DNA of 64,000 bases. Source: a bacterium. Its GTDB lineage: Bacteria; Armatimonadota; Zipacnadia; Zipacnadales; UBA11051. The stretch covers positions 1-64,000 of the forward strand of contig JAUVVY010000018.1 in the NCBI GenBank assembly GCA_030604405.1, written 5' to 3'. Of the stretch, positions 31,998-53,426 are shown one piece after another. The notes beneath the pieces were generated by a model. That model was not told the DNA's origin. It saw only the letters and a list, made by a program, of their open reading frames with translations, and ran no database searches. Made by a program: the position numbers and the translations under genes. Position 1 is the stretch's first letter. Every line of letters starts with the position of its first letter.

Positions 31998-32064
31998 CTT
32001 ACATTGACACTGGGCAGGCCGTATCATTGTCACCGACCACCTGACCGAAGTGAGGAGCACGATG

Positions 32065-35724: not shown

Positions 35725-35868
35725 ACGATTTGCACGCTCGAAGCGGCCGGCACACGGGTACTTTCTTGCGCGCGAATAAAAAAACACAATTTGATTAGAC
35801 AAAAAGCGGCCCACGGGGCACACTAAGGTGATGATACACAACCGTGTCCCAGGCCAGGGCGGTCGCAG

Positions 35869-36411
35869 ATGAGAACCGTAGGCCCAGCAGAAGATCGGCA
35901 TCTTCTGGCGGCGCTTGCCGGCGGCGACCTGACCGCCTTGCAGAAACTCTACGAAGCCTATGCGAGCCTGGTGTATCAGATACTGCTGTTGCACACGGCC
36001 AACACACAAGATGCCGAGGACCTGCTGCAGGAAGTATTCCTGTCGCTGATAGAGCTGGGGCGCGGCGTGACCAGAATTCGCAATGTCCGGGCGTACCTGC
36101 TGAAGGTGGCGCTGAACAAGGCCAGCCAACTGTACGCCAGGGGCAAGCCAATGCAGCTCGATCTCCACAATACTAATCTGGTGGACACTGACAATGTGCA
36201 GTCGCAAAGCCGTATGGGCGCATTGCGAGTGCAGGAAGCGCTCAGCCAACTGCCTGTGGAGCAGCGCGAAGCCGTCATCCTGAAGGTCTGGCACGAATGT
36301 ACTTTTGCTGAGATCGCCGAGATCTTTAATATTCCGATAAACACAGCAGCCAGCCGTTACCGGTACGGCCTGGAAAAGCTGCAGCAGATACTGGGTGATA
36401 GTGATGAATAG
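35869..36411 (+). CDS. ECF-type sigma factor
   Basis: 180 aa. Region 2 (LYEAYASLVYQILLLHT then DAEDLLQEVFLSLIE) binds the -10 element and core polymerase; region 4 (ALSQLPVEQREAVILKVWHE then TFAEIAEIFNIPINTAASRY) is the helix-turn-helix for the -35. It lacks regions 1 and 3, as in sigma-24/ECF factors. Its stop overlaps the start of a single-pass membrane protein, the usual sigma/anti-sigma arrangement. It probably directs transcription of the two secreted proteins and perhaps the propeller array downstream, which is inference. Confidence 0.9.
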   Translation: MRTVGPAEDRHLLAALAGGDLTALQKLYEAYASLVYQILLLHTANTQDAEDLLQEVFLSLIELGRGVTRIRNVRAYLLKVALNKASQLYARGKPMQLDLHNTNLVDTDNVQSQSRMGALRVQEALSQLPVEQREAVILKVWHECTFAEIAEIFNIPINTAASRYRYGLEKLQQILGDSDE

Positions 36412-37024
36412 CCAGCAAGGATTCGAACAGCGTCTGCGGCGGGCGCCGCTGCGACAGCCCTCCGCCGAGGTCGAAAGCGAGCTGTTGTGGCGCGCCGAGC
36501 GCCTGACACGCAGCAGGCGGCGGTGGCGCCAGATGACGGTCGCCGTCGTCGCCGCGGCGGCACTGCTGCTAGTGGTCAATGTGGTAGCGGACCAGATCCA
36601 TGCGCGAAATATCGCGACACTCACTGGACAGCCGACTATTGACGAGCCGCTGCGAACAACGCTGATCTTCGCCGAGAACCTCCGCGCCCGCAGGCAGCTC
36701 ATCACCAATAGCCTCGAACAGAACGACAACGGATCGGCCCAGTTTGATACGCTAGGTGTATCGGCCCCTGCCCGGCAGCCGGCCGTCACCAAGCCGCTGC
36801 AGATGAAGCCGATAACCATCGAGGCATTACGCGCCCGCAACCAACTCATCAATGATATCCTCGAACTCAACGGCGATGCCGCCATAACGGATAAGGAGGA
36901 CCGTCATGGAAAACACGACAGCAGTACGCACTCGTTCGGAGTGTGCAATCCGCAGATCTTGCCACAAGTTTGCGTGTGTATTCTTCGGGCTTGTTCTTGC
37001 GTGTGGCGTGGTGTGGGCCGCTGA
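36404..37024 (+). CDS. Probable anti-sigma factor (single-pass membrane protein)
   Basis: 206 aa from ATG 36404, overlapping the sigma-factor stop by 8 bases. The N-terminal 45 residues are charged and cytosolic, residues about 46-63 (MTVAVVAAAALLLVVNVV) span the membrane, and the rest is external. It carries two copies of an R-A-R-x-Q-L-I segment (RARRQLITNSLEQN, RARNQLINDILELN). The last 40 residues overlap the next gene by 119 bases and read as Cys-rich nonsense, so the true end may be near 36900 if a frameshift exists. No zinc anti-sigma motif is seen; assignment rests on position and topology. Confidence 0.6.
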   Translation: MNSQQGFEQRLRRAPLRQPSAEVESELLWRAERLTRSRRRWRQMTVAVVAAAALLLVVNVVADQIHARNIATLTGQPTIDEPLRTTLIFAENLRARRQLITNSLEQNDNGSAQFDTLGVSAPARQPAVTKPLQMKPITIEALRARNQLINDILELNGDAAITDKEDRHGKHDSSTHSFGVCNPQILPQVCVCILRACSCVWRGVGR

Positions 37025-38282
37025 CGAGACGCAGTGGAGCCAGCAACTGGCCGCAGAACTGGCAGAATTGAAGGCCCAGGGCATCCCGCTGACGATGGCG
37101 GAGCTTGTGTCAAAAGATGTCCCGGACGAACAGAACGCTGCGCCTCTGTACATGCAGGTATTCCACGTTCATTGGGATACCGAGCGGAGAAGGACTGGGG
37201 ACCAGGAAATAGGCGGAATCAGCGACGAAGAAGCGAACATGGTCGCGGACTACCTCAAGCCCGAGAACAGGGAGTTTATCGCCGCAGCGGTCCATGAGCT
37301 CTTCGAGCGGACGCAGGTGCAGTCCGCCATGAAAGCCCTGAGAATCGCGTCCCTGATGCCTCACGCGGTATTTCCCGTAAACTGGGATTGGGGCCTCGGT
37401 GCGTTGTTTCCGCACCTGACCAAGTTCAGGCAGGCTACACGCCTCGTCTTGGCGTATGCGCTGATGCTGCACGAGCAGGGCCAAACAGATGAGGCCCTGG
37501 AATGGTGCCAGGTCAACTTCAGAATGTCCCAGCACGCCGCCTCTGAGCCTATTTTCATATCCCAGTTGCTCGCAATTGCGATGCAGCAAATGACTCTCGA
37601 GACAGTTGAAGAAATCATCGCGAACCAGCCGCTCGAAGCAGCAACGGCCACCAGCTTCGCCGATTTCCTTGGCGAGGTGGACCTTCGCGAGGCCTACACT
37701 CGTGCCATAATCGGCGAAATGACCTTGGGCCGGTACATTTTCGAGCAACTTCGCCACTATCCGGCAGCTGGCAGAGAGATTGCTGCATCGATCTTGGGTC
37801 ACCAGCACAGCGACCTGCAGAAATATTGCAGCGAAGCCGGACGGTCGCTACGGGAGTTTGATGAATTAATATATCTGCGGGCGATGAGGCTGTGGATTGA
37901 GGCCAGCGAACTGCCGAGTCGGGAAGTTGAGGCCGCGTGGGATCACGCACAGACAGAGATAGATGCCGCCGGCCCCGGAGCCATTCTAGCCCGCGCTCTG
38001 GTACACGTGTTCCATAAACCGGACAGAAAGATAGACCTCGCACAGGCACGCATTGATGTGGCCAGGATTGCGTTCGCACTCAAGGCGCACAAGCACATCC
38101 ACGGCGCATATCCTGAAGACCTTGCTGAATTGCAGAAGGGCCTTTCCTGGCAGCTTCCCAAGGACGTCTTTGCGGGCGAGGACTTCGCTTACCAGATCGA
38201 CGCGGAGGGCTTCGTGCTCCACAGCGAGGCCCGCGATGACCTTGAAGGCCTTCTGCCGGTAGAATGGACCGCTGAAAACTAG
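36906..38282 (+). CDS. Secreted protein with pseudopilin-like C-terminal segment, paralogue 1
   Basis: 458 aa; AAGGAGGA six bases upstream of ATG 36906. Signal region residues 20-38 (HKFACVFFGLVLACGVVWA), possibly a lipoprotein at Cys33. A long helical body (DEQNAAPLYMQVFHVHWD, then GISDEEANMVADYL, then repeated AHxxP-type helices) is followed at about residue 385 by DVARIAFALKAHKHIHGAYP then LPKDVFAGEDFAYQI, matching the C-terminal part of GspG-type pseudopilins. Paralogue of the next gene. Function unknown; expected at the cell surface or periplasm and probably part of the sigma-factor operon. Confidence 0.65.
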   Translation: MENTTAVRTRSECAIRRSCHKFACVFFGLVLACGVVWAADETQWSQQLAAELAELKAQGIPLTMAELVSKDVPDEQNAAPLYMQVFHVHWDTERRRTGDQEIGGISDEEANMVADYLKPENREFIAAAVHELFERTQVQSAMKALRIASLMPHAVFPVNWDWGLGALFPHLTKFRQATRLVLAYALMLHEQGQTDEALEWCQVNFRMSQHAASEPIFISQLLAIAMQQMTLETVEEIIANQPLEAATATSFADFLGEVDLREAYTRAIIGEMTLGRYIFEQLRHYPAAGREIAASILGHQHSDLQKYCSEAGRSLREFDELIYLRAMRLWIEASELPSREVEAAWDHAQTEIDAAGPGAILARALVHVFHKPDRKIDLAQARIDVARIAFALKAHKHIHGAYPEDLAELQKGLSWQLPKDVFAGEDFAYQIDAEGFVLHSEARDDLEGLLPVEWTAEN

Positions 38283-38331: not shown

Positions 38332-39744
38332 ATGTCGCAAGAGCATCCAGCCACGACAGTACGCAGCGGCGACTGGCTGGCCCGCATCGTCCCGAAACTG
38401 CTGGTGGTGGTGCTGGCGCTGGCTGTGATGCCCGCTGGTGTGTGGACGTATTACAATGTCAAATGGGGCGGCGAGCTGTCAAGAGAGTTGGAGGCCTGGC
38501 AAGCTAAGGGCCTGCCCCTTTCGCTGTCCGAGGTAATCCCCCAGCCGGTGCCAGACAGCGAGAATGCGGCCCCCATATACCTGAGTGTGTTTCATGTCAG
38601 TTTCGATCCCGACGATCAGCCTTCCCCACAACGCAATCTTGCCGGCCTTTCTGATGAGGAAGAAGACCTCATTCACTACTACCGGCGTGGCAAAGACCGG
38701 GCCGCAAACATCGCCCGGGTGCGCGCCATCCTGAGCCGCCCTGAGGTGGTGCGGGCGCTGCAGACGCTCAAGCGTGCCTCCCAGCGCAAGAAATCGGTAT
38801 TCCCGGTGAAGTGGGAGGAGGGCTTTGCGGCGCTTTCTGCCCACCTGGCCCGCTTCCGTCACGGCGCGCGGCTCGTGGCGGCAAATGCGCTGATCCTGGC
38901 TGAGACCGGCCACGTGGACGAGGCCCTCGATTGGTGCCTCATCGGGCTGCGCATGGCAGACCATGCGGCAATGGACCCGAGGCTGATGGGCCAACTAGTC
39001 GCAACAGCAGTGCGTAACATGACTCTGGATGCACTCGAGGAGATAATATCGGACAGGCCGGTGCCGGCACGCGTAGGCCAGGCCCTCCAACAGCATTTGC
39101 AGGGCATTGATCTGTACAAGAGTTATACGCGGGCCATCACATTCGAAGCCGTGTTGGGGCATTCCGTGTTTCTGGAATTTCGTACCGAACCTGACAATCT
39201 TCGCAACCTGATGTTCCCAGACCTCGACGACGGTCAACTGCTGGGGCGTCTCTATTTCAGTTGGGTAGGGAGGCCTCTTCACAAGTCCGATGAGGCTAGA
39301 TATCTGCGGATCATGCGCGGGCAGATACAGGCCGCGGAAAGCCCGTGGGCGCAGATTAAGGGGACCAATGATGCAGTGAACGGGCAATTGCGCGAGGCGC
39401 CGCCAGCGTTGCTCAGCGCTGTTCTAGTTCCCGTAGTCGCTGCACTCGCTTCGAAACGCGACAGGGAAGCGGCCCGCCTGGACCTCTGCCGCATAGCCCT
39501 GGCGCTGAAGGCGTACAAGCAGCAGCACGGCCGGTATCCGGCAAGCCTTGGTGCGCTTGCGCAGAGCCGCAACACGCAGCTACCGAAGGATCCCTTCACC
39601 GGAAGGGACTATGTCTATAGGCAAGCAGGGCACGGATTCGTGGCATATAGCGTAGGCTCGGACGGTGACGATGACGGCGGCGTTGAACCAGAAAGCGGCA
39701 AGACCGACCCCGATGGCGACATCGTCTGGAGGGCAAAGATATAG
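38332..39744 (+). CDS. Membrane-anchored protein with pseudopilin-like C-terminal segment, paralogue 2
   Basis: 470 aa; GAGGAG precedes ATG 38332 by 8 bases. Residues about 20-42 (PKLLVVVLALAVMPAGVWTY) form an N-terminal anchor. ENAAPIYLSVFHVSFDPDDQ, GLSDEEEDLIHYYR, and near the end LDLCRIALALKAYKQQHGRY then LPKDPFTGRDYVYR followed by YSVGSDGDDDGG parallel the first paralogue and GspG-like proteins (the last with acidic calcium-type residues). It starts 49 bases after paralogue 1. Likely external; partner or substrate unknown. Confidence 0.65.
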   Translation: MSQEHPATTVRSGDWLARIVPKLLVVVLALAVMPAGVWTYYNVKWGGELSRELEAWQAKGLPLSLSEVIPQPVPDSENAAPIYLSVFHVSFDPDDQPSPQRNLAGLSDEEEDLIHYYRRGKDRAANIARVRAILSRPEVVRALQTLKRASQRKKSVFPVKWEEGFAALSAHLARFRHGARLVAANALILAETGHVDEALDWCLIGLRMADHAAMDPRLMGQLVATAVRNMTLDALEEIISDRPVPARVGQALQQHLQGIDLYKSYTRAITFEAVLGHSVFLEFRTEPDNLRNLMFPDLDDGQLLGRLYFSWVGRPLHKSDEARYLRIMRGQIQAAESPWAQIKGTNDAVNGQLREAPPALLSAVLVPVVAALASKRDREAARLDLCRIALALKAYKQQHGRYPASLGALAQSRNTQLPKDPFTGRDYVYRQAGHGFVAYSVGSDGDDDGGVEPESGKTDPDGDIVWRAKI

Positions 39745-39832: not shown

Positions 39833-42136
39833 TTGCGTATCCTATCTGTTGTTACGCTGGTTTGTGCTCTTGTGGCTGGCGGGGCGATGGCACAGGACGC
39901 CTTTGTTGATCACGGAGTGGGCGCGAAGGTCGCCGAATCCCGAGGCGTGGTCACCACCCAGACGGCCGACGGCAGGTGCCTGGTGATTGCCAACGCCCTG
40001 GACACAAGCCCGATCAGCTACGTGCTGGTCACCGACATTGACACGGGCGAGACCAAGCAGTACTTCTGCCCGGAGGATGTGCGCCAATCCGCGCCCTACG
40101 GCTCATTGATGCACAGTAACGGCAAGTTCTACACCACGCAGGGCAGCATCTTCCTGGAGTTCGACCCGGCGGCGGGAGAATGGACCTTCCAGGCCACAGG
40201 CTCCCCGATCGGAAGCGCTTACATCGGCTTCACCGAGGGCCCTGACGGAACGGTATGGGCGGGCTCGGTCTATCAAACCGGCCTGATATCGTTTGACCCG
40301 GAAACCAGAGAGATAACAGACCACGGCCGCATGGACCCCGAGGAGAGGTATCTCAACACTCTGGCCGTTGACGACGCGGGCTGGGTCTATTGCGGCATCG
40401 GGACGGCCAGGTGCAACATCATCGCCTATAACCCTGCCACCGGCGAAAAGCGGCAGCTCATAGATGAAGACGAGCGCGTCACCGGCTCCGGCAGCGTTTA
40501 TCCCACCGATGACGGTGCGGCTTACGGTACCGCCGTCGGGAAGCACTACCGTCTCTTTGAGGGGCAGGCGACACCGATTGAGAAAGCGGATGTCCCGCCG
40601 CGCAGGGACGTGCGCAACATCGGCTGGGGCGCGAAGACGGGAGCGTTCCCTGACGGCCGCCGGGTCCGCACCTATAACCTGCCGGATAAATGGCTTGAAG
40701 TCCATAACCCGGAGACCGACGAGACCAAGCGCATTGAATTCGACTACGAGACCGAGGGCGTAAGCATAACCAGTCTCGGTGCGGGGCCAAGCGGAGTGGT
40801 CTATGGCTCCACCTGCCATCCGATGCACTTCCTTGCGCTTGACACCAATACCGAGACGCTGCAGGACATGGGGGCCATACCCCAGGTCGGCGGCGGCAAC
40901 TTCTGCGCCATCGCCACGCAGGGCGACATCGTAATAGGCGCGCAGTACGCAGCGGGCTGCTTGTGGGCTTATGATGTCAATATGCCCTGGAATCCCACTC
41001 ACAGGCGCGAGGGCCTCAGAATATCCGCCCAGGACCTGATGAAGGTCAGCGAATGTAAGGACGGTCACTGGAGCTACCTGGCCGGACACGATATTGCGTT
41101 TCTCTGTGGCGACAAGTTCGGCGCAGAGGGAACGTTCAAACTCAATGCGCCTGAAGATGGCAAGTACTACCTCTACATCCAGCCCTTTCGGTCGGCGAGA
41201 TATTGCACCGTGCAGTTTCTCCTTGATGACAAAGAGATCGGAGAGCCGTATGTCGCAACCAACAATACTACACGAGCGGACGAGTTGCAGATCTATGGGC
41301 CGATCGACTTGCAAGCCGGCGAGCACCGTTTGACGGTCAGGACGCTGGAGTCAGAAGGCCAGGAGCCCTGGTGCGCGATATGTTCGGTTGACCTGACTCA
41401 GGAGAAGCGCGAGCAGCCGCTTGTCGCGGAGGAAGTCAATCCGCGTGTGCTGGGGCAGTGGAAGCGCGACGTATGCCGACCACGCACGGCACTGGCGCAT
41501 CCCGATGGCAAGCACGTGATGATGGCCGGTTATGCCGGCTACGGGCTGTGCGGCGGCGGCATCGGCATTGTCAACCTCGAGACCGGACAGGACACGCTGC
41601 TCACCGCGGAGGAGGACCTGCTGCCCGGGCACAGTTGCATTACGCTCAAGGCACTGCCGAACGGCGACCTCGTGGGCGGCACTACCATCGGCGCACCCGG
41701 CGGTGGACATCCTACGGCCACCGAGGCCGAATTGTTCATCCTCGACTGGGAAACCAAGAAGATAACCTTCCACACGGTGCCCGTACCTGGCGACGGCAGC
41801 ATCATCAGCATTCAGGTGGCCGCTGACGGGTTGGTCTATGGCCTTTCCAGCAACAGCACGTTCTTCGTCTTCGACCCCGACAAGCAGGAGATCGTGCACA
41901 GCGAAAGCTTCAAAGACTACGGTGGCGTGCCGCGTCATGCGCTGCAACTGGGCCCGGACGACAAACTCTACGCGATGCAGGGAGCGGCTATAGTGAGGAT
42001 AACTCCGGGCACTTTCGAGCACGAAAAGCTCGCCGACACGCCGGTGAACATAACTGCCGGCGGGGCGCTGGTCAATGGGCTTTTGTGCTTTGCCGGCGGC
42101 TCACACGTATGGACGTACCAGGTCCCCGGACTCTGA
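39833..42136 (+). CDS. Secreted two-propeller protein, array copy 1
   Basis: 767 aa from TTG 39833, with AAGGAGG seven bases upstream; the upstream frame to 39665 overlaps the previous gene. Signal peptide RILSVVTLVCALVAGGAMA ends before Gln. Domain order: a propeller-like half (about 25-390) with strands such as YVLVTDIDTGETKQYF, FYTTQGSIFLEFDPAAGEWTF and FTEGPDGTVWAG; a central sandwich-like domain (about 395-545; KYYLYIQPFRSARYCTVQF, LQAGEHRLTVRTLES); and a second half starting RPRTALAHPDGKHVMMAGYA. It resembles SMP-30/Vgb-type propellers of lyases but catalytic residues are not evident. Ligand unknown. Confidence 0.75.
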   Translation: MRILSVVTLVCALVAGGAMAQDAFVDHGVGAKVAESRGVVTTQTADGRCLVIANALDTSPISYVLVTDIDTGETKQYFCPEDVRQSAPYGSLMHSNGKFYTTQGSIFLEFDPAAGEWTFQATGSPIGSAYIGFTEGPDGTVWAGSVYQTGLISFDPETREITDHGRMDPEERYLNTLAVDDAGWVYCGIGTARCNIIAYNPATGEKRQLIDEDERVTGSGSVYPTDDGAAYGTAVGKHYRLFEGQATPIEKADVPPRRDVRNIGWGAKTGAFPDGRRVRTYNLPDKWLEVHNPETDETKRIEFDYETEGVSITSLGAGPSGVVYGSTCHPMHFLALDTNTETLQDMGAIPQVGGGNFCAIATQGDIVIGAQYAAGCLWAYDVNMPWNPTHRREGLRISAQDLMKVSECKDGHWSYLAGHDIAFLCGDKFGAEGTFKLNAPEDGKYYLYIQPFRSARYCTVQFLLDDKEIGEPYVATNNTTRADELQIYGPIDLQAGEHRLTVRTLESEGQEPWCAICSVDLTQEKREQPLVAEEVNPRVLGQWKRDVCRPRTALAHPDGKHVMMAGYAGYGLCGGGIGIVNLETGQDTLLTAEEDLLPGHSCITLKALPNGDLVGGTTIGAPGGGHPTATEAELFILDWETKKITFHTVPVPGDGSIISIQVAADGLVYGLSSNSTFFVFDPDKQEIVHSESFKDYGGVPRHALQLGPDDKLYAMQGAAIVRITPGTFEHEKLADTPVNITAGGALVNGLLCFAGGSHVWTYQVPGL

Positions 42137-42222
42137 GCCGCTTGGGGACGACGAGAATAACCGGACTGGGGCCGCACGCCTGTCCGGTCGGCCTTCGCAG
42201 ACGGCAGAAAGGATGATCTATC

Positions 42223-44508
42223 ATGAAAGTGCTGTGTTGTCTTACGCTGTTGACGGTGCCAGGTTCGATGGTTCTTGCCCAGAACGGGTTCACGGACCTC
42301 GGCATCGGCGCGCCCGTGATCGAGAGCCGTGGGGTTGTCGCGACCGTTGATGACAATGGCAACCACGTCGTGATCGCCCACGCCTCCGGCTTCGTACTGG
42401 TCACCGATGTTGATACCGGAGAGACCGTGCAGATCCCTACTCCGCCGGGCATGCCGGCGGCCTCGATGTATGGCTCCGTACTGGCCAGCAATCGCAAACA
42501 CTACGTGGGCCACGGCAATCACATCGCGGAATTCGATCCCACCAAGCGCGAATGGACGTACCACGAGCTGGGCGCGGCCGCCGACAGTTGCTACATAGGT
42601 GTGACGGAGGGCCCCGAGGGCGTCATCTGGGCCGGCGGCTATCCGCGCCTCCACCTGGTCTCATTCGACTTCAACACGCGGGAGATTAAGGACCACGGGC
42701 AGATGGACCCCACGGAGGCTTACATCTCAACCATCGCCGTTGATGACAGGGGCTGGGTGTACCTCGGCATCGGCACCGCCAGGTCCAACCTAGTCGCCTA
42801 CAATCCGGCTACCGGGGAACGCCGCCAACTGGTTGACGAAGAGGATCGCATCACCGGCGGCGGACACGTTTACCCGGGCGTGGATGGACAGGTGTACGGC
42901 TCCAACGCCGAGCAGTGGTACCGCATGTATGACGGGCAGGCCACTGAGATCCAGCAGGCCGATGCGGAGGAGGAGAAGGACGTCGGCAGTATCTACTGGC
43001 CCAACACGACGTTCGACCTCCCTGACGGCCGCCGCGTAATCGAGTACGCGATGCCTGAAAGCTACATGAAAATCTACGACCCCAAGACCGACGAGACCAA
43101 GACCATCACCTTTGCCTATGAGACCGAGGGGGCCCACATAAGCGGCACAGGCGTGGGCCCGGATGGCAAGATATACGCCTCGTCGGGCCACCCGATGCAC
43201 ATGATCGTCTATGATCCGACGACCGGCAAGTTGGGGGACCTCGGGCCAATACCGGACATCGGCAACGGCCACATCAACATGATCGCGCGTCAGAGCCAGT
43301 ACGTCCTCGGTGGCTCGTACGGTGGCGGACGGCTGTGGGCGTACGATACGACCAAGCCGTGGAACCCGAGCGGAGGGCGGCCGGCGTTCGCAATGTCTGC
43401 GGAGCAACTGGCGGACCGCGGACGGATACCCGACGGTGAGGTCAAGCACATCCCCGGACACGATGTGACGTTCTTCAAGGCCGCGGACTACGGCGTAGAG
43501 GCTACATTCACGCTCGATGTGCGCGCTGATGGGCAGTACTACCTCCACATTCTCCCCTACCTCGGCTCGGGCTATTGTACGCTGCAATTCTCATTCGACG
43601 GCAAGGAAGTGGGCGAGCCGTATGTGGCCACCGACCCGTACCTGCGACCGGGATCACCCGTTGTCATCGGACCGATGGAACTCAAGGCGGGGCAGCACCG
43701 GCTCGGCGTGCGGCTGATCGACAATGACTCGCCGAATCCATGGGGGGCGCTGTGCGGAGTTGACCTGACGACACAGAAGCGGGATGACTTGATCCAGGCC
43801 TCGGAGCCCAATCCCATCGCACTGGCCCAGTGGAGCGCAGACATCGGCCGGCCGCGCTACGTGCTGGCTCACCCCGACGGGCACACGGTACTGATGACCG
43901 GCTATCCCGGCTACGGACGCTGTGGGGGCGGTGTGGGCATCTATGATTTCCAGACCGGCGAGAGCTCGCTGCTGACGGCCGATGATGACCTGCTGCCCGG
44001 CCTCACGACTGTCGAGCTGAAGGCTCTCTCCGACGACATGCTCTTCGGCATCACCTCCGCGCTGGCTCTCACCGGCGGGCACAGGATAGCCGAGGAAGCC
44101 GAAATCTACATGCTCAAGTGGCCGGAGCGGGAAATCGTGTTCCACACGGTCCCCGTCAAGGGCGCCGACCGCATTGTCAGTTGCACGATCGGGCCGGACG
44201 GACTGGTTTACGCGCTGACGGATTCAGCCGTTGTGTTCGCCTTCGACCCGGCGAGTAAAGAGGTGGTCCGCACGGCAGATCTGTCAGAGTACGGCGGGGT
44301 GCCGCGGCTGTCGATGCACACCGGGCCGGACGGCAATATCTACGCGTTGATGTCCGGGGCGGTACTGAGACTCAAGCCGGGCACGCTCGAACACGAGAAG
44401 CTCGGACAGCCGCCGACAGGCGTCGGCAACGGCGGTGCGTTGCATGAGGGTGTGCTGTACTACAGTTCGGGCTCACATCTCTGGAGCTACCAGCTACCCG
44501 GGCTGTGA
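42223..44508 (+). CDS. Secreted two-propeller protein, array copy 2
   Basis: 761 aa. AAAGGA nine bases before ATG 42223. Signal peptide KVLCCLTLLTVPGSMVLA. Same domain order as copy 1: LLxDVDTGETVQ-type strands (VLVTDVDTGETVQIPTPPG), HYVGHGNHIAEFDPTKREWT, GVTEGPEGVIWAGG; central FRAxDYG-type region (DVTFFKAADYGVEATFTLDV, LKAGQHRLGVRLIDND); and RPRYVLAHPDGHTVLMTGYP in the second half. Differs in loops, so ligand specificity may differ. It begins 86 bases after copy 1. Confidence 0.75.
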   Translation: MKVLCCLTLLTVPGSMVLAQNGFTDLGIGAPVIESRGVVATVDDNGNHVVIAHASGFVLVTDVDTGETVQIPTPPGMPAASMYGSVLASNRKHYVGHGNHIAEFDPTKREWTYHELGAAADSCYIGVTEGPEGVIWAGGYPRLHLVSFDFNTREIKDHGQMDPTEAYISTIAVDDRGWVYLGIGTARSNLVAYNPATGERRQLVDEEDRITGGGHVYPGVDGQVYGSNAEQWYRMYDGQATEIQQADAEEEKDVGSIYWPNTTFDLPDGRRVIEYAMPESYMKIYDPKTDETKTITFAYETEGAHISGTGVGPDGKIYASSGHPMHMIVYDPTTGKLGDLGPIPDIGNGHINMIARQSQYVLGGSYGGGRLWAYDTTKPWNPSGGRPAFAMSAEQLADRGRIPDGEVKHIPGHDVTFFKAADYGVEATFTLDVRADGQYYLHILPYLGSGYCTLQFSFDGKEVGEPYVATDPYLRPGSPVVIGPMELKAGQHRLGVRLIDNDSPNPWGALCGVDLTTQKRDDLIQASEPNPIALAQWSADIGRPRYVLAHPDGHTVLMTGYPGYGRCGGGVGIYDFQTGESSLLTADDDLLPGLTTVELKALSDDMLFGITSALALTGGHRIAEEAEIYMLKWPEREIVFHTVPVKGADRIVSCTIGPDGLVYALTDSAVVFAFDPASKEVVRTADLSEYGGVPRLSMHTGPDGNIYALMSGAVLRLKPGTLEHEKLGQPPTGVGNGGALHEGVLYYSSGSHLWSYQLPGL

Positions 44509-44557
44509 CATACACCAGTGGCAGCAGAGAGACAGAACGCGAAAAGGAGCAAACAGA

Positions 44558-46876
44558 ATGAGGTGCGTTATGACCTACATGCTGATGTGCGTGCTGTGCG
44601 TGATGATGGTGTGCGCCACCGCGCAGGGCCAGAAGGCAGATGATAAGCTGATTGACCACGGAGTGGCCGTCCCGCTGGCCGAGCGCCGTGGCGTGGTGAC
44701 CACCCAGGACGCCAATGGTAAGAACCTGGCCATTGCCTGCAGTCTGGACTTGAATCCTCGCGGCTGGATCTTGGTCACTGACATTGACAGTGGCGAGACC
44801 ACACAGATTCAATGCCCCGAAGGTGTGGGCAATTCACCGCCCTACGGCTCGCTTATGCACACCAACGGCAAATTCTACACAACGCAGGGCAGCGTGCTGT
44901 TGGAATTTGATCCCACTTCGCGTGACTGGACTTTCCACGGCACTCCCTCTCCGGCGGCAAGCTGTTATCTGTCGTTCACCGAGGGCCCTGACGGCATGGT
45001 CTGGGCCGGCAACGCCTACACCGCCGGCCTGATCTCGTTTGACCCCGAGGCCCGGGAAGCGCAGGACCACGGGCGGCTCGACGAGGCGCAGAAGTATCTT
45101 TCGGCGCTGGCTGTTGATGACGCCGGCTGGGTCTATGGCGGCATCGGCACTGCTCGCTGCAACATCGTGGCCTACAACCCTGAGACCGGCGAAAAGATCC
45201 AGATTGTGGACGAGGCCAAGCGCAAGGTCGGCACTGCCAACGTATATCGCGGTGAGGACGGCAAGGTTTATGGGAGGGCCGAACTGGCGGACGGCGCACA
45301 ATTCTACCGCCTCTACGATGGCAAGGCCGAGGTCATACAAGAAGCCGACATGGGCCCCAAAGCGCCCACGGGAGCCATCGGCTGGGGTAACAAGCGCGGC
45401 AGCCTCCCCGACGGGAGGCAGCTAGTCAACTACAGCATGACAGATAAATGGCTGGAGGTGCGTGACCCCGAGACCGGCGAGACCAAACACATCGAATTCG
45501 ACTACGAATCAGAAGGCACCCACCTGCGGGTCATGACCGCCGGCCCCGACGGCAAGGTCTATGGCAACTCGGCGCATCCCTCGCGCGGAGTGACCTACGA
45601 TCCAGAGACTGATGTCCTGGAGTATCAGCGCGGGGCCATTGCACGAAAGGGCTTTGCAACACAGGGCAAGTACATCATCGGAGGCCACTACGGAGGCGGC
45701 AGGCTGTACGTGTTTGATACCACCATGCCGTGGAACATGGCTCCGGTTGCCGCGAGCCTGCGTGGCGGAATACCGGCTATGGAGCTGACAAAGCTGGCCG
45801 AAAGCGACGCAGGCAAGATTGATTACATCGAGAGCCACGACCTGGTACTATTCCGCGCAGACGATTACGGCGGCCAGATTCACTTCCCGCTGGAGGCAGG
45901 CGACGACGGACAATACTACCTGATTATCGCGCCCTACAAGTCGCCCGGCTATTGCACCGTGCAGTTTTCGCTTGACGGTACGGAGATCGGTGAACCGTAT
46001 CCAGGATATGCCAAGGCGGCAGAGTCCGGCCCCTTCCAGACATTCGGCCCCCTGCAGCTCAAGGCGGGCGAACACCGGCTCAGTGTCAAGACCATCAAAG
46101 CTGAGGCCGGCAATCCCTGGATCGGCATCAACGCCATCAGCCTGACCAAAGAGCAGCCGGACGGCGTGATAGCTGAGGCCCAACCGCCCAATCCCCGACT
46201 GGTTGCCACGTTCTCCCCTGACATCAACGTCCCCTGGGGCGCAGCCGCACATCCCGACGGCCAGCATGTGATGATATCAGGCCCACCCGGCTACGGCTAC
46301 CTTGGCGGCGGCATCGGCATCTACAACCTCGAGACCGATGAGGAAATGCTTCTGACCCACGAGCAACTCATCGAAAACCACTGTGTCACGGCGATGGCGC
46401 CGCTGGACAACGGGGACATTGTGTGCGGCAGCAGCGTAGGCGGCGGCCATGGCACCACAGCGGTGGCTAAGGAAGCTGTCCTGTTCGTTCTGGACTGGGA
46501 GACGAAAGAGATCAGCTTCCAGACCGTGCCGGTGGCCGGGGCCAGTGCAATCCGCCTGATGCGTACGGGCCCCGACGGCTTGGTATATTGCATAGCGGAC
46601 GCCTCGGGCTTCTTCGTCTTTGACCCCGGCAAGAAAGAGGTCGTGCATGACGAGAGCCTGGGCGAATATGGCGGCACACCGGTCAACGGCATGGAGCGCG
46701 GCCCCGACGGGAATATCTATGTGATCTTCTCAGAGGCGATACTGAAGATCGCGCCGGGCAGTTTCGAGGTCGAGAAGATCGCCGACACGCCGGCCTCTCC
46801 GACCGCCGGCATTGCCGTCGTCGGCGGGCGCGTCTATTTCGCGATAGGATCGCATCTGTGGAGCGCGAAATTGTAA
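44558..46876 (+). CDS. Secreted two-propeller protein, array copy 3
   Basis: 772 aa from ATG 44558 (AAGGAG upstream); the longer frame to 44435 lies in the tail of copy 2. Signal peptide region MRCVMTYMLMCVLCVMMVCA. Strand motifs WILVTDIDSGETTQIQC, FYTTQGSVLLEFDPTSRDWT; central FRADDYGGQIHFPLEAGDDG and LQLKAGEHRLSVKTIKAEAG; second half with AAHPDGQHVMISGPPGYGYL. It ends IGSHLWSAKL. With copy 5 it shares the start MR-V/CxM, PVNGMERGPD and IGSHLWS-x-KL, so copies 3 and 5 are the closest pair. Confidence 0.75.
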   Translation: MRCVMTYMLMCVLCVMMVCATAQGQKADDKLIDHGVAVPLAERRGVVTTQDANGKNLAIACSLDLNPRGWILVTDIDSGETTQIQCPEGVGNSPPYGSLMHTNGKFYTTQGSVLLEFDPTSRDWTFHGTPSPAASCYLSFTEGPDGMVWAGNAYTAGLISFDPEAREAQDHGRLDEAQKYLSALAVDDAGWVYGGIGTARCNIVAYNPETGEKIQIVDEAKRKVGTANVYRGEDGKVYGRAELADGAQFYRLYDGKAEVIQEADMGPKAPTGAIGWGNKRGSLPDGRQLVNYSMTDKWLEVRDPETGETKHIEFDYESEGTHLRVMTAGPDGKVYGNSAHPSRGVTYDPETDVLEYQRGAIARKGFATQGKYIIGGHYGGGRLYVFDTTMPWNMAPVAASLRGGIPAMELTKLAESDAGKIDYIESHDLVLFRADDYGGQIHFPLEAGDDGQYYLIIAPYKSPGYCTVQFSLDGTEIGEPYPGYAKAAESGPFQTFGPLQLKAGEHRLSVKTIKAEAGNPWIGINAISLTKEQPDGVIAEAQPPNPRLVATFSPDINVPWGAAAHPDGQHVMISGPPGYGYLGGGIGIYNLETDEEMLLTHEQLIENHCVTAMAPLDNGDIVCGSSVGGGHGTTAVAKEAVLFVLDWETKEISFQTVPVAGASAIRLMRTGPDGLVYCIADASGFFVFDPGKKEVVHDESLGEYGGTPVNGMERGPDGNIYVIFSEAILKIAPGSFEVEKIADTPASPTAGIAVVGGRVYFAIGSHLWSAKL

Positions 46877-46903
46877 GCTCCCGCATCAGCCAAGCTGCGG
46901 CTC

Positions 46904-46992
46904 CTGGAAGCGGCTTCAAAACCTCCTTTGCGGAGACTCACAGACCCAGGGACTGTCCCCCCATCCACACCGGGTTTTGAAACAGCTTCCAG
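46904..46992. repeat. Short inverted repeat after array copy 3
   Basis: CTGGAAGCGGCTTCAAAACC (46904-46923) and GGTTTTGAAACAGCTTCCAG (46973-46992) are inverted with two mismatches around a 49-base centre containing GGGACTGTCCCCCCATCC, a motif that recurs near 303-320. A small element or a structured terminator region. Confidence 0.5.
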
Positions 46993-47069
46993 TGTTACGA
47001 CAGCAGGGCAGCGCATAAAGTACAACCTGTCGTTTCGTACCGCCGCAGCTCGTAGAAAGGGTGAGTTAG

Positions 47070-48974
47070 ATGAAATGCGTGACAGACTTAATGATGATAG
47101 TCTTGCTTGGCTCCACGATTATCTTGGCCTGCGCTCAGCAGGCACAATATCCCAGAGATGCCGGCAACGGCTTCAAGGACTACGGCGTGGCCGCCCCGGC
47201 GCAAGAAAGCCGTGGTGTTGTCGCTTGCAAGGATGACAACGACCATTATCTGGTGCTGGGTAACACAATGGACTTCCTCCTCGTCACCGATATTGATACG
47301 GAAGAGACCACGCAGTACTGGATGCCTGAAGGCGTCGCCGGCTCCTATCCTTACGGCTCGATAATGGCAAGCAATGGCAAGTTTTACATCTGCCACGGCG
47401 CGACTTTCATGGAGTTCGACCCCACAGCCCGCGACTGGACCTTCCACGAGGTACCGGAGGGCAGGGATGGCTGCTATATCGGCTTCACGGAGGGCCCCGA
47501 CGGCGTTATCTGGTGCGGCGGATGCCCGAATACCCGCCTGGTCTCATTCAACCCGGAAACACGGGAATTGAAAGACTACGGTCAGATGGACGAAGCGGAG
47601 AAGTATCTTAGCAACCTAGCCGTGGACAGTTCCGGCTGGGTCTATGGCGGTATCGGTACGGCCAGGTGCAATATCGTCACCTGCAATCCCGCTACGGGCG
47701 AAATAATACAGCTCATGGACGAAGCGGATCGCAAGCACGGCACGGCAGTCGTTTACCCGGCGGAAGATGGCAAAGTGTACGCCAGCTACGGCGGGCAGCA
47801 TTATCGCTGCTTCGAGGGCAACATCGAAAAGATCGCCAAAGAAGCAGCCGGCAAGCAAAAGTCCGTTGGCAACATCGGCTGGGGCAACACGAAATTCGCT
47901 CTGCCCGACGGCCGCCGCGTCGCTGCCTACTCGATGCCCGAGCGCTATATGAAGATCCACAACCCCGAGACAGATGAAACCAAGACGATTACCTTCGACT
48001 ACGAGACCGTAGGCGCAAGCCTCACCAGCCTTGCCGCCGGTCCCGACGACAAGATTTACGGCTCCTCCTGTCACCCTATGCACTTCTTTGTGTACGACGT
48101 GGCCGAAGACAAGCTGGAAGACTGGGGCCCGGTGCCTGGCATCGGCGGCGGCAACTTCTGCGCTATCACCACCCAGGGCGCCCATCTAGTGGGCGCCGAA
48201 TACGCCGGTGGGCGACTGTATGATTATGATACTGCCAGGCCGTGGGATCCCGCCGGCGAAGGCGATGCCAAGAACCCGCGCATGTTGGCCAAGTGGCACC
48301 AGGACATCTGTCGGCCTCGCACCGCCCTGGCCCATCCGGACGGCAAGACCGTCATGATGGCCGGTTTCGCAGGCTATGGCCTCTGCGGCGGCGGCATCGG
48401 CATGTACGATCTTGAGACCGGCGAAGAGCTCCTGCTTGCTGCCGATGAGGATGTGCTGCCCGGCCACAGTACCATCACCCTGCAGGCGCTGCCGAACGGG
48501 AACCTGGTCGGCGGCACCAGCATCTCAGCCCCCGGCGGCGGCCACACCACAGCCACCGAGGCGGAGCTATACATTCTCGACTGGAAGACCAAGAAGGTAG
48601 CCTTCCGTACAGTGCCGGTGCCGGGTGACGGCAATATCATCAGCATCCAGGTCGCCAACGACGGTCTGGTCTATGGCCTGTCCGGTAATTCCACCTTTTT
48701 CGTCTTCGATCCCGACAAGCAGGAACTGGTCCACAGCGAGAGCTTTGCCGAGTACGGCGCTGTGCCGCGCCATGCTTTGCATGTAGGACCGGACGACAAC
48801 CTCTACGCTCTGATGAGCAGGACGATCGTCAAGCTAGCGATGGGCACATTCGAGCACGAGAAGTTGGCCGACACGCCTGTGCCTATCTCTGGCGGTGGTG
48901 CGCTGCATAAGGGCGTGCTCTACTACGCCTGTGATACACATTTCTGGAGCTATGATGTGCCCGGCCTGGACTAA
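47070..48974 (+). CDS. Secreted propeller protein, array copy 4 lacking the central domain
   Basis: 634 aa. AAAGGGTGA before ATG 47070. Signal MKCVTDLMMIVLLGSTIILAC has ILAC at the end, a possible lipobox, so this copy may be membrane-anchored unlike the others. First half as in the array (LLVTDIDTEETTQYWMPEGV, FTEGPDGVIWCGG). The sequence then jumps from TARPWDPAGEGDAKNPRM straight to ICRPRTALAHPDGKTVMMAG, omitting about 130 residues that form the central domain in the other four. Close to copy 1 in the second half (GLCGGGIGMYDLETGEELLL). Confidence 0.75.
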   Translation: MKCVTDLMMIVLLGSTIILACAQQAQYPRDAGNGFKDYGVAAPAQESRGVVACKDDNDHYLVLGNTMDFLLVTDIDTEETTQYWMPEGVAGSYPYGSIMASNGKFYICHGATFMEFDPTARDWTFHEVPEGRDGCYIGFTEGPDGVIWCGGCPNTRLVSFNPETRELKDYGQMDEAEKYLSNLAVDSSGWVYGGIGTARCNIVTCNPATGEIIQLMDEADRKHGTAVVYPAEDGKVYASYGGQHYRCFEGNIEKIAKEAAGKQKSVGNIGWGNTKFALPDGRRVAAYSMPERYMKIHNPETDETKTITFDYETVGASLTSLAAGPDDKIYGSSCHPMHFFVYDVAEDKLEDWGPVPGIGGGNFCAITTQGAHLVGAEYAGGRLYDYDTARPWDPAGEGDAKNPRMLAKWHQDICRPRTALAHPDGKTVMMAGFAGYGLCGGGIGMYDLETGEELLLAADEDVLPGHSTITLQALPNGNLVGGTSISAPGGGHTTATEAELYILDWKTKKVAFRTVPVPGDGNIISIQVANDGLVYGLSGNSTFFVFDPDKQELVHSESFAEYGAVPRHALHVGPDDNLYALMSRTIVKLAMGTFEHEKLADTPVPISGGGALHKGVLYYACDTHFWSYDVPGLD

Positions 48975-48988
48975 CTGACCGAATCAGG

Positions 48989-49111
48989 CCGGGTAGCTTC
49001 GAGGTCGAAGAAATCGCCGACCCGCCGGGGCCGATCGAGGTAGAACTCGCACTGGTCAAGGGGCGCGCCTATTTCGTCATAGGAACGCACCTGTGGAGCC
49101 CTGGAATATGA
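48989..49111 (+). pseudogene. C-terminal relic of a sixth array member
   Basis: Fifteen bases after the stop of copy 4, an open frame reads PGSFEVEEIADPPGPIEVEL, then VKGRAYFVIGTHLWSPGI and a stop. This aligns with the end of copy 3 (PGSFEVEKIADTPASPTAGI then FAIGSHLWSAKL). There is no start, so it is the remnant of another paralogue lost by deletion or unequal recombination. Confidence 0.75.
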
Positions 49112-49172
49112 GAGTGCGAGGCAACAACCCTTGCCGTAATCATGAAAACGCTGGCAACAAAGGAGAGAAAAG

Positions 49173-51476
49173 ATGAGGTACGTCATGAGTATCCTGGTAG
49201 CAGGTGTGATGTGCGTTGTGCTGACGCCTGCCTTTGCGCAGGAGGCCAGGCAGGACGAGAGGTTCATTGACCACGGCGTGCCCGTGCCGTTAGCCGAGTG
49301 CCGCGGTGTTTACGGCGCGCAGGATGAGAACGGCAACAGCCTCGTCATTGTCGGAAGTCTCGACCTCTCCCCTAGTGGCTGGATACTGGTCACCGACGTT
49401 GATACCGGCGAAACGCAGCAGATATACACGCCTGAGGGGGTGGCTAACTCCCCGCCCTATGGCTCACTGGTGGCCAGCAACGGCAAGTTCTACACCAGCC
49501 AGGGCGGCATATTTCTGGAGTTCGACCCGACCTCGCGCGAGTGGACTTTCCATGGCCGCGCGCCCGGCGTTGGCGCTATGATGTGTATCGCCGAAGCCCC
49601 CGACGGCACGATATGGGCAGGCAGCGTCTATCACGCCAATCTCACCTCCTTTGATCCAAAGACAAAAGAGATCAAAGACCACGGCAGCATGGACGAGCAG
49701 AAATACCTCTCCTACCTGGGCTTCGATGACGCCGGCTGGGTCTATTGCGGCATCGGCACAGCCAAATGCAACCTCATCGCGTATCACTCCGAGACCGGCG
49801 AAAAGCGCCAGCTTATCCCGGAGGATCAGCGCAGGGTCGAGAGCGGGCGTGTCTGGCGAGGCGCGGACGGCAAGCTCTACGGCACTGCGCCACTCAAGGA
49901 CGGCACCGTGTATTATCTGCTCGACAACGGCGAAAAGACCCTTGTTGACAAAGCTGACCTGCCGGCTCGGGCGGTGCCGCGCGGGACCAAACCCAAACTC
50001 CCCGACGGCCGCATAGTCAACACCTTCGACATGCTCGAAAAGTACATGGAGATCTACGACCCCGACACCGGCCTGACCAACCGCATCGAATTCGACTATG
50101 AATCTGAGGGCAGCATGGTACGCGTTCTGACTCATGGCCCGGACGGCAAAATCTACGCCAACTCATCTCACCCTTCCCGTTTCATCTCCTACGACCCGGA
50201 GACCGATGAGCTGAAGTATTACCCGGGTGCGATCGCGCTCAAGGGCATGGACACTCAGGGCAAGTATGTCTTCGGCGGCATGTACACAGGCGGCAGCCTC
50301 CACGTATTCGACACCACAAAGCCCGTCAACCTGCTCCCCGAACCGCCCAATATCGTAGGCGGCCTCTCTCCTGCCCAGCTCCTCGAAGTAGGCGCAACCG
50401 AGGCAGGCAAGCTCTTCCTGCACCAAGACCGCGATGTGCTGATGTTCAGGGCCGATGACTACGCCGGCAAAGCTGATTTCAAGGTCGCCGCGCCTGAGGA
50501 CGGCCAGTATTACGTCCTCGCCGCCATGTGGCAATCGCCCGGCTACTGCTATGTACGTTTTCTCCTGGACGGCGAAAAGATTAGCGGGGATATTCAGTGC
50601 AGGAGTTCAGCTCTCCAAGTCGCGCCGATAGTAACACTTGGCCCCTTTGACCTCAAAGCCGGCGAGCACCAGTTGACCATGCAGACGATCAAGGGTAAGA
50701 ACTCGAAGCATCCGTTACTCGCGCTCCGAGCAGTAACACTGACCCGCCAGGACCCCGAGGAAGTGACAAGCAAGCCCCGGGAGAACAACCCGCGACGCGT
50801 CATTGACCACTCCCGGCCCGACGTCAACGTGCCCTGGGGAGCTTTTGCCCACCCGGATGGAAAGCACATCCTGATCGCCGGCCTGCCCGGCTACGGCCGC
50901 GTCGGTGGCGGCATGGACATCTACAACCTGGAGACCGGCGAGACGCTGAAATTCACCCATGAGGACCTCATACAATACCACAGCACCATCCCGATGCAGG
51001 CTCTACCCAACGGTGACATAATCGCCGGCACCACCGTTTCAGGCACCCACGGCGGCGAAGCTGTCGAAAAAGACGCCGTCATCTGGGTCCTGGACTGGCA
51101 GACCAAGAAGGTCAAGTGGCAAACGGTGCCGATACCCGAAATGTCCGCCATTGGCCGCATGAAGATGGGCCCTGATGGCAAGCTCTATTGCACGGGCTCC
51201 GATGCGGTGTTCTTTGTCTTCGACCCGGAAAGCAGGACGGTTCTGCACCAGGAAAGCCTTGAAGAATACGGTGGTGTGCCTGTCAACGGCATGGAGCGTG
51301 GCCCCGATGACAATATCTATGTCGTGCTTACCAAGGCGATAGTGAAGATCACACCGGGCACGTATGAGGTTGAGAAGATCGCCGCCGCCCCGGGTGACAT
51401 CAGCGCCGGCATCGGCATCACTGGCGGCCGCATCTATTTCGCGATAGGCTCGCACCTCTGGAGCATAAAGCTATAG
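49173..51476 (+). CDS. Secreted two-propeller protein, array copy 5
   Basis: 767 aa. AAAGGAG seven bases before ATG 49173. Signal RYVMSILVAGVMCVVLTPAFA. First half: WILVTDVDTGETQQIYTPEG, FYTSQGGIFLEFDPTSREWT, IAEAPDGTIWAGSVYHANLT. Central: DVLMFRADDYAGKADFKVAA and LKAGEHQLTMQTIKGK. Second half: WGAFAHPDGKHILIAGLPGY and GVPVNGMERGPDDNIYVVLT, ending FAIGSHLWSIKL. Same architecture as copies 1-3; closest to copy 3. The last full member of the array. Confidence 0.75.
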   Translation: MRYVMSILVAGVMCVVLTPAFAQEARQDERFIDHGVPVPLAECRGVYGAQDENGNSLVIVGSLDLSPSGWILVTDVDTGETQQIYTPEGVANSPPYGSLVASNGKFYTSQGGIFLEFDPTSREWTFHGRAPGVGAMMCIAEAPDGTIWAGSVYHANLTSFDPKTKEIKDHGSMDEQKYLSYLGFDDAGWVYCGIGTAKCNLIAYHSETGEKRQLIPEDQRRVESGRVWRGADGKLYGTAPLKDGTVYYLLDNGEKTLVDKADLPARAVPRGTKPKLPDGRIVNTFDMLEKYMEIYDPDTGLTNRIEFDYESEGSMVRVLTHGPDGKIYANSSHPSRFISYDPETDELKYYPGAIALKGMDTQGKYVFGGMYTGGSLHVFDTTKPVNLLPEPPNIVGGLSPAQLLEVGATEAGKLFLHQDRDVLMFRADDYAGKADFKVAAPEDGQYYVLAAMWQSPGYCYVRFLLDGEKISGDIQCRSSALQVAPIVTLGPFDLKAGEHQLTMQTIKGKNSKHPLLALRAVTLTRQDPEEVTSKPRENNPRRVIDHSRPDVNVPWGAFAHPDGKHILIAGLPGYGRVGGGMDIYNLETGETLKFTHEDLIQYHSTIPMQALPNGDIIAGTTVSGTHGGEAVEKDAVIWVLDWQTKKVKWQTVPIPEMSAIGRMKMGPDGKLYCTGSDAVFFVFDPESRTVLHQESLEEYGGVPVNGMERGPDDNIYVVLTKAIVKITPGTYEVEKIAAAPGDISAGIGITGGRIYFAIGSHLWSIKL

Positions 51477-52199: not shown

Positions 52200-52337
52200 G
52201 GCCTCTCGAACTGATAACTCTTTCCAAAGCACCAACAGCCGCGAGCTGCCCGTATGCTGTTACTCCTCGGCGTTTTACAGTGCCGGCAACATGACGCAAA
52301 CCAAGTCAAGTAGCTACTACATGACGGAAGGTGGATG
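52200..52337 (+). pseudogene. Possible YD-repeat relic
   Basis: A frame ending at TGA 52335-52337 reads RTDNSFQSTNSREL, then SSAFYSAGNMTQTKSSSYYM. The FYSAGNMTQT stretch resembles the YDAAGNMTQ unit of Rhs proteins. Only one unit is recognisable and it lacks a start. Its stop overlaps the ATG at 52335. Support is weak. Confidence 0.35.
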
Positions 52338-52340
52338 ACA

Positions 52341-53426
52341 ATGCCAAAAGCAGGCAATTTCGAGCACGGGGTGGTAGCTTCCCGCCCCGACCAGATGTAC
52401 GGCTGGCCGGGCATAACTCGCGTCCAGGGCGACCATATCCTGGTCAGCGCCTCGGAGCGCAAGTACCATGTTGATCCCATCGGAAGAGAGGTGGTCATCC
52501 ACTCATACGATGGCGGCAAAACCTGGGAACTGCCCCAGGAGGTCTTCAATGGCGAGCTCGACGACCGTGACGCCAACCTCCTGACCATGGCTGATGGCAC
52601 GCTCGTTCTCACCTGGTTCACGTCCATCGCCTTTCTCAGATGGCTCGAGGATGACGCGTGCCCGGAGCCGTGGCGAGAGCGCTGGCTGGCCCGCGTCGAG
52701 CGCCAGGGCATTACACCCGACACCCCTGTCGGCGGCTGGCTCATCCGCTCCACTGATGCCGGACGCACCTGGGAGGCGGCCCATGAGATACCCATCGGCC
52801 ACCATGCCGGCCCAAGTGTGCTCAGCGACGACCGGCTCATTTACATCGGTTCCGCCGGCGTCGCAGGCCTTGCGCCGGTTTGGGAATCGGCCGACAAGGG
52901 CGACACCTGGGCGCAGATAGGAGAGGTCCGCGGGCCTTGCGCCGGCGATTCTCCCCACGGGGCTTTCAACGAGAATCACGTGCTGGAGTTGTCTCCCGGA
53001 CGCCTCCTGGTCGTCTTTCGCACCGAGTTCGAAGACCGCGATGCACGATACCTCCACCAGTCGAATTCCGAAGACGGCGGCCACACCTGGTCCGACTTAA
53101 AGCCCATGCCGGTCTGGGGATGTCCCCCTCATCTTATCCGCCTCAGTTCAGGCCCGATCCTGTGCGTTTACGGCCATCGCCGCAATCCCTACGGCATCCG
53201 GGGCGTACTTTCCTACGATGACGGAGACACCTGGGACGACGAGAACATCATTACCATCTACGAGTTCGACCAGCCGTGGGACATCGGCTATCCGGTTTCG
53301 CTGGAGGTAACTGCCGGCCACATTCTGACCGTGTATTATTGCAACCGCAAGCAGAACGTGGGCCCCTCGCTGGCCTATTCCGACGATCCCGGAGGCATTC
53401 TCTACACGCGCTGGACTTTGCACTGA
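52341..53426 (+). CDS. BNR-repeat sialidase/neuraminidase-like protein
   Basis: 361 aa from ATG 52341 with AGGTGG six bases upstream; ATG 52335 is too near the site. Five Asp-box motifs: HSYDGGKTWE, RSTDAGRTWE, ESADKGDTWA, NSEDGGHTWS and SYDDGDTWDD, the hallmark of six-bladed sialidase-type propellers. NENHVLELSPGRLLVVFRTE and GYPVSLEVTAGHILTVYYCN (with a late Tyr) fit the fold. No signal peptide is visible, so it may act on imported glycans or may not be a true sialidase. The nucleophile pair is not certain. Confidence 0.8.
   Translation: MPKAGNFEHGVVASRPDQMYGWPGITRVQGDHILVSASERKYHVDPIGREVVIHSYDGGKTWELPQEVFNGELDDRDANLLTMADGTLVLTWFTSIAFLRWLEDDACPEPWRERWLARVERQGITPDTPVGGWLIRSTDAGRTWEAAHEIPIGHHAGPSVLSDDRLIYIGSAGVAGLAPVWESADKGDTWAQIGEVRGPCAGDSPHGAFNENHVLELSPGRLLVVFRTEFEDRDARYLHQSNSEDGGHTWSDLKPMPVWGCPPHLIRLSSGPILCVYGHRRNPYGIRGVLSYDDGDTWDDENIITIYEFDQPWDIGYPVSLEVTAGHILTVYYCNRKQNVGPSLAYSDDPGGILYTRWTLH

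Follow-up and report, generated by a model that had tools for sequence, protein, structure and literature searches.

Exported tandem double-propeller proteins of a Zipacnadia bacterium as possible accessory binding proteins for acidic-polysaccharide breakdown

What do five consecutive genes for exported propeller proteins do next to an ECF sigma factor, and do they belong with that regulator or with the breakdown of polysaccharides? The question is raised by contig C9 of a 4.37-Mb genome (G000), of which a stretch of 64,000 nucleotides, here called the window, was analysed. A first-pass annotation had described five tandem secreted paralogues with a single domain order, each gene with its own Shine-Dalgarno sequence and separated from the next by a short gap, and had proposed a role in sensing or in glycan capture. 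The proteins belong to a family of about 615-770 residues that is shared by most of the related Armatimonadota/WS1 genomes, reaches into several other phyla and is nameless in Pfam and NCBIfam. As family members lie both beside and inside heparinase-type systems, a direct biochemical test of their role is possible. A paper on the Zipacnadia makes no mention of propellers and reports few extracellular CAZymes.

The array, P1 to P5, spans positions 39833-51476 and its features are collected in Table 1. All five genes run in the same direction on the + strand and encode an N-terminal hydrophobic export sequence, which bears out the description of tandem secreted paralogues. Compared with P1, identity is about 48, 51, 61 and 45% for P2, P3, P4 and P5, respectively (44-61% overall). 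Every gene is preceded by a Shine-Dalgarno-like sequence, that of P4 being the weakest, and the gaps from the preceding gene are 88, 86, 49, 193 and 198 nt before P1, P2, P3, P4 and P5, so the account of the spacing (49-198 nt) also stands. The single domain order does not, since P4 entirely lacks the central domain. In each protein the propeller ends a few residues before the stop codon, and no surface-anchoring domain was found in the array proteins. A phage origin of the array was considered and set aside, as phage records gave no match.

Table 1. Features of the array, its 3' side and the sigma operon upstream of it, with positions counted along the window.
Feature	Position	Strand	Remarks
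ECF promoter TAGACAAA-N16-ACACT	35796..35824	+	upstream of the sigma gene; sole exact copy in the window
ECF sigma factor	35869..36411	+	180 aa; Pfam Sigma70_r2 and r4; present in 25 of the 61 related genomes
Candidate anti-sigma	36395..37024	+	one TM segment; 119-nt overlap of its 3' part with the following gene
First paralogue, helical part and GspG-like C-terminus	36906..38282	+	38% identity to the next product
Second paralogue, GspG-like C-terminus	38332..39744	+	PF08334 at residues 375-449, weak, E=1.3e-6
P1	39833..42136	+	767 aa, TTG start; double propeller, CBM-like insert present
CBM-like domain of P1 (XBM/CBM35/CBM6 type)	41003..41437	+	inserted within the eighth blade hairpin
P2	42223..44508	+	761 aa; CBM-like insert present
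P3	44558..46876	+	772 aa; CBM-like insert present
P4	47070..48974	+	634 aa; CBM-like insert lacking
Remnant of a sixth copy, C-terminal end	48980..49102	+	41 aa; reads RIRPGSFEVEEIADPPG...GTHLWSP
P5	49173..51476	+	767 aa; CBM-like insert present
BNR/sialidase-like gene 3' of the array	52335..53426	+	also follows the P5 orthologue in G001 (L047)

An AlphaFold2 model of P1, for which the alignment input was 61 family members, was confident throughout (pLDDT 94.4, pTM 0.86) and nearly all beta. The top solved matches in Foldseek were tandem WD40-type double propellers and HTCS sensor domains. The TM-scores of the full model were low (0.2-0.35), and these matches therefore support the fold class and no specific relative; at such scores the modelled placement of the two propellers relative to each other is supported by no solved relative. 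When compared with itself, the family profile gave a repeat period of about 43 residues over almost the entire core. Thirteen blade hairpins were counted in P1 by reading its hairpin motifs, which suggests about 13 blades in one continuous series, and the ends of this series most likely close on each other, the first strand (FVDHG) completing the last blade. Both boundaries of the central domain fall within the eighth hairpin (PWNP ... NPR), which makes this domain an insert of the second half. The two propellers of the first-pass annotation are thus retained, but the domain that it had placed between them is inserted in one hairpin of a continuous series.

It had also been noted that no named family fits these proteins, and this holds for Pfam and NCBIfam, in which no model covered the whole architecture of the five array proteins or the 61 family members. 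The family resembles the Pfam propellers DUF5074, SGL, Vgb and Kelch in giving weak single-blade matches to them, but none of these models spans the architecture of the array proteins, and the DUF5074 cut-off was passed by one of the five across just 76 residues. Among solved structures, the best match of the family profile was an HTCS periplasmic sensor domain (4a2l, E=1.6e-8), a value that sums weak repeats of the kind typical for any propeller. The HTCS sensors (BT4663/BT4673; PDB 4a2l, 4a2m, 3ott, 3va6) also place two consecutive beta-propellers outside the cytoplasm, a tandem arrangement that P1 shares at the level of fold class, and the PDB entry for BT4663 describes the sensing of heparin/heparan sulphate. 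However, HTCS proteins continue into a Y_Y_Y domain, a TM helix, a kinase and an AraC-type output, whereas Pfam and NCBIfam scans found no Y_Y_Y domain, TM helix or histidine kinase/AraC output in P1-P5, which instead have a CBM inserted.

For the central domain, a profile of 30 members matched the xanthan-binding module MiXBM (PDB 7ehg, E=2.5e-11, about 90 residues), an entry listed under the PL8 xanthan lyase MXL (PMC10881899), as well as a Paenibacillus xanthan lyase (6f2p, E=5e-4). Modelled alone, the domain reached a pLDDT of 92.7 and aligned to 7ehg with TM 0.64/0.69; it also matched CBM35/CBM6 structures, some of them bearing uronic-acid ligands. The Pfam model CBM_35 matched weakly, in 4 of the 30 members (best E=0.0015). 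With both sequence homology and a beta-sandwich fold in common with such modules, the domain is, judging by profile and model, a carbohydrate-binding module of the xanthan-binding module/CBM35/CBM6 type, for which binding itself is predicted. MiXBM lies at the end of its enzyme, the array module instead inside a propeller hairpin, and the two share about 14% identity when aligned by structure. Structure prediction of whole P1 and of the central domain returned propellers and a CBM, and no single known enzyme family. A heparinase-like protein of 1342 aa encoded in G000 carries the same CBM (48% identical). The CBM is missing from 35 of the 61 aligned family members and, in the tree, has been gained or lost at least four times within the family; as the larger part of the family does without it, it cannot account for the core function.

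The family is widespread: 46 of the 61 related genomes have members, G000 about a dozen, and others occur in Lentisphaerota, Verrucomicrobiota, Gemmatimonadota and one Neobacillus (Neobacillus citreus). G000 has 54 Hepar_II_III_C matches and about 28 BNR_2 genes, an abundance that makes proximity within a few kb to one of them weakly informative, and an enrichment of Hepar genes near family loci is not claimed against so high a background. Because loose proximity proves little, weight was placed on fusion, domain sharing and tight gaps. In G010 a P1-type member has, at a distance of 23 nt upstream, a gene that matches the heparin/heparan-sulfate lyase HepB (NF045571, E=1.9e-133, under the equivalog cut-off); in G022 about 170 nt separate a family member from the DUF4962/Hepar_II_III_C gene upstream of it. 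Two Lentisphaerota proteins (L064:1055-5245 and L065:9245-13369) fuse LamG, the double propeller, a heparinase-like sandwich and the same CBM. In two Opitutaceae proteins with no evident signal peptide (L062:3874-6801 and L066:8939-11851), a DLH/glucuronyl-esterase-like alpha/beta hydrolase (GHSLGG) is fused N-terminally to the double propeller. Furthermore, BNR genes lie next to family members on C9, C91 and C57 of G000 and in L057, where they precede a Lentisphaerota relative, and GH32, GH95 and beta-helix genes lie near other members. Heparinase II/III-type lyases (HepB-like, DUF4962/Hepar_II_III_C) are thus neighbours or fusion partners of the family and in G000 share the CBM with the array proteins. 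The array proteins, in contrast, are without the alpha/alpha toroid and the heparinase catalytic domain: in Pfam, Hepar_II_III_C or a catalytic toroid domain was absent from P1-P5 and present only in neighbours and fusion partners. The earlier suggestion of glycan capture gains support from a central domain that is a CBM and from relatives that adjoin or fuse to polysaccharide-degradation genes.

A further set of neighbours was observed at 31284-34016 of the window, where a creatininase-like gene is followed by two reductive-dehalogenase/QueG-like 4Fe-4S genes. Creatininase and paired RDH/QueG-like genes also lie beside family members in G003 and G004, and one 4Fe-4S gene does so in G042. Some of the homologues found in relatives are interrupted by an in-frame stop. 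A conserved operon was rejected, as the association is limited to few genomes (G000, G003, G004 and G042, with creatininase also in G016 and G020) and most orthologues of these genes lie away from family members; we keep the link as synteny.

Taken together, we put first, with about even confidence, the reading that P1-P5 are accessory binding proteins for the breakdown of acidic polysaccharides. They would be exported, non-anchored double propellers, four of them with a CBM35/XBM-like domain that protrudes from a second-half hairpin, and outside the cytoplasmic membrane they would bind a polysaccharide that is acidic (uronate-rich, possibly sulfated), either whole or in fragments. In doing so they may help lyases of the heparinase superfamily and sialidase-like enzymes, which the cell has in large numbers, to capture or process the polysaccharide, with targeting supplied by the CBM and a paralogue-specific specificity by the propeller faces.

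The main rival reading, which we consider somewhat unlikely, makes the double propeller catalytic in its own right: it would be a new lyase, hydrolase or lactonase of propeller fold, with oligosaccharides or sugar acids as substrates, and the CBM would be its targeting module. The propeller fold is common among polysaccharide lyases and glycosidases, and many residues are invariant across the family (D48, Y80, Y153, Y166 and Y352, with R195 and H536 nearly so; A2 numbering). The conserved residues, however, lie mainly in blade-turn motifs (FDP, PDG), an invariant pair that would clearly be catalytic was not found, and no catalytic-family model of Pfam or NCBIfam rose above its cut-off in the five array proteins or the 61 members. 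The alpha/beta hydrolase fusion of the Opitutaceae members speaks for an enzyme, as does the member of Neobacillus citreus (L072:9998-11836), which has no signal peptide, is apparently cytoplasmic and lies in a sugar-uptake operon with a sugar ABC system (including its binding protein), an FGGY kinase, a sugar-binding regulator and a DegT aminotransferase. This setting keeps an enzymatic role in play; it fits an enzyme inside the cell no less well than a binding protein and so counts against an accessory function, and it offers a way into a culturable organism. The more far-reaching proposal, in which the double propeller represents a new class of catalytic fold for acidic polysaccharides or their oligosaccharides, itself a lyase, hydrolase or esterase partner with a hairpin-borne CBM, unnamed, spread over several phyla and multiplied in arrays, is in our view unlikely.

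The sigma cassette upstream must be considered separately. The sigma factor has the hallmarks of the ECF group, namely regions 2 and 4 without region 3, an adjacent candidate membrane protein and its own promoter. The candidate anti-sigma and the first GspG-like product gave no Pfam family. The first-pass annotation of this segment is upheld for the sigma factor, the anti-sigma candidate and the two paralogues, but not for the label pseudopilin-like: both paralogues are about 460-470 aa long, GspG-like only in their C-terminal part, and by eye their N-termini contain no prepilin cleavage motif, so that they fall outside the T2SS major pseudopilin GspG, which is defined by an N-terminal prepilin cleavage motif, a hydrophobic helix after it and a C-terminal beta domain.

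The promoter of the sigma gene is conserved across the order (14 sites compared). In G000 it has eight exact copies, against about 0.04 expected from base composition, and 14 sites with at most one mismatch, against two for a reversed control; in the window, sites with three mismatches are at chance level. Besides the one at 35796, the sites of G000 lie on contigs C6, C18, C28, C44, C61 and C67 (L176-L184). They precede a secretin gene (C6), GspF (C61), three GspG-domain genes (C44 twice, C61) and, on C28 and C18, carboxypeptidase-regulatory-like repeat proteins. The secretin and GspF sites were found again in G003, and G004 has neither a sigma orthologue nor a promoter site. From the distribution of these sites, the ECF sigma appears to direct a secretion/pseudopilin-type gene set to which the propeller array does not belong. 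The order-wide promoter makes this a well-supported pairing, set apart from the tempting but wrong one of propellers as sigma partners; a literature search found no paper on such an ECF regulon. Near-identical copies of the promoter were also seen at 1376, 3888 and 6298 of L176 (C28) and at 1432 of L180 (C67), in front of an apparent tandem family of carboxypeptidase-regulatory-like repeat proteins, where two of the four clearly precede ORFs of 793-818 aa.

Several observations separate the array from this regulon. The cassette of sigma, anti-sigma and GspG-like genes occurs in about 25 of the 61 genomes, including three (G008, G018, G026) without any propeller family member. A linkage between cassette and array, as had been supposed, does exist, in G000 and G003, but is confined to this one genus; in G004 the array genes stand at the syntenic place and the cassette is absent. 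The idea that the neighbouring sigma has the propellers as its regulon was rejected, as none of the other propeller family loci of G000 is on a contig with a promoter site and the window has one exact site. The array has no copy of the promoter of its own and its contiguity with the cassette is limited to this genus, so sigma control would act only through read-through. Read-through from 35796 is plausible because no terminator-like sites were found in the gaps between the sigma-operon and array genes, the overall count of such sites being at chance level. In this genus, the position of the array downstream of a presumably autoregulated ECF operon, whose other targets would be the secretin, GspF and GspG-domain genes, makes co-transcription with the secretion/pseudopilin-type regulon possible, and the array proteins may be cargo of that system.

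A surface-type set of sigma targets (secretin, GspF and carboxypeptidase-regulatory-like repeat proteins) would suit P1-P5 as components of a cell-surface scaffold, adhesion system or matrix with no specific role in polysaccharide breakdown. We regard this as improbable, as the proteins lack a surface-anchoring domain, their insert is homologous to the CBM of a polysaccharide lyase, and other members are fused to catabolic domains or lie scattered in catabolic neighbourhoods. The sensing role first proposed, in which the propellers would be extracellular sensors or co-receptors that pass a glycan signal to the adjacent anti-sigma, could appeal to the contiguity with the sigma operon and to the HTCS domains, which are the best profile match among solved structures and rank high by fold, but is very improbable given a cassette kept without propellers, a G004 array with neither cassette nor promoter motif, and proteins without Y_Y_Y, TM and kinase parts.

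Duplication had rightly been held to have diversified the array, but it is old: in the tree, each of P1-P5 has separate orthologues in sister genomes, as expected of old paralogues. The orthologue of P4 in the sister genome G001 (L047:101-2446; 85% DNA identity) retains the central domain and differs from P4 there by 441 nt in frame, so P4 lost its domain recently. The C-terminal halves of P1 and P4 are 73% identical; gene conversion between them was considered and dropped, as the C-terminal half of P4 is nearer to that of its orthologue (DNA identity about 79-89%). In G001 a gene for a secreted protein of 451 aa (L047:2502-3857) separates the orthologues of P4 and P5, at the place where the window has the short remnant of a family member; its assignment to GH30 was a motif impression only and was not retained, Pfam, NCBIfam and PDB having given no match. 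In G003 (C121:14204-18862; L136), copies of the sister array are in pieces, with frameshifts or stops that possibly reflect decay or assembly error.
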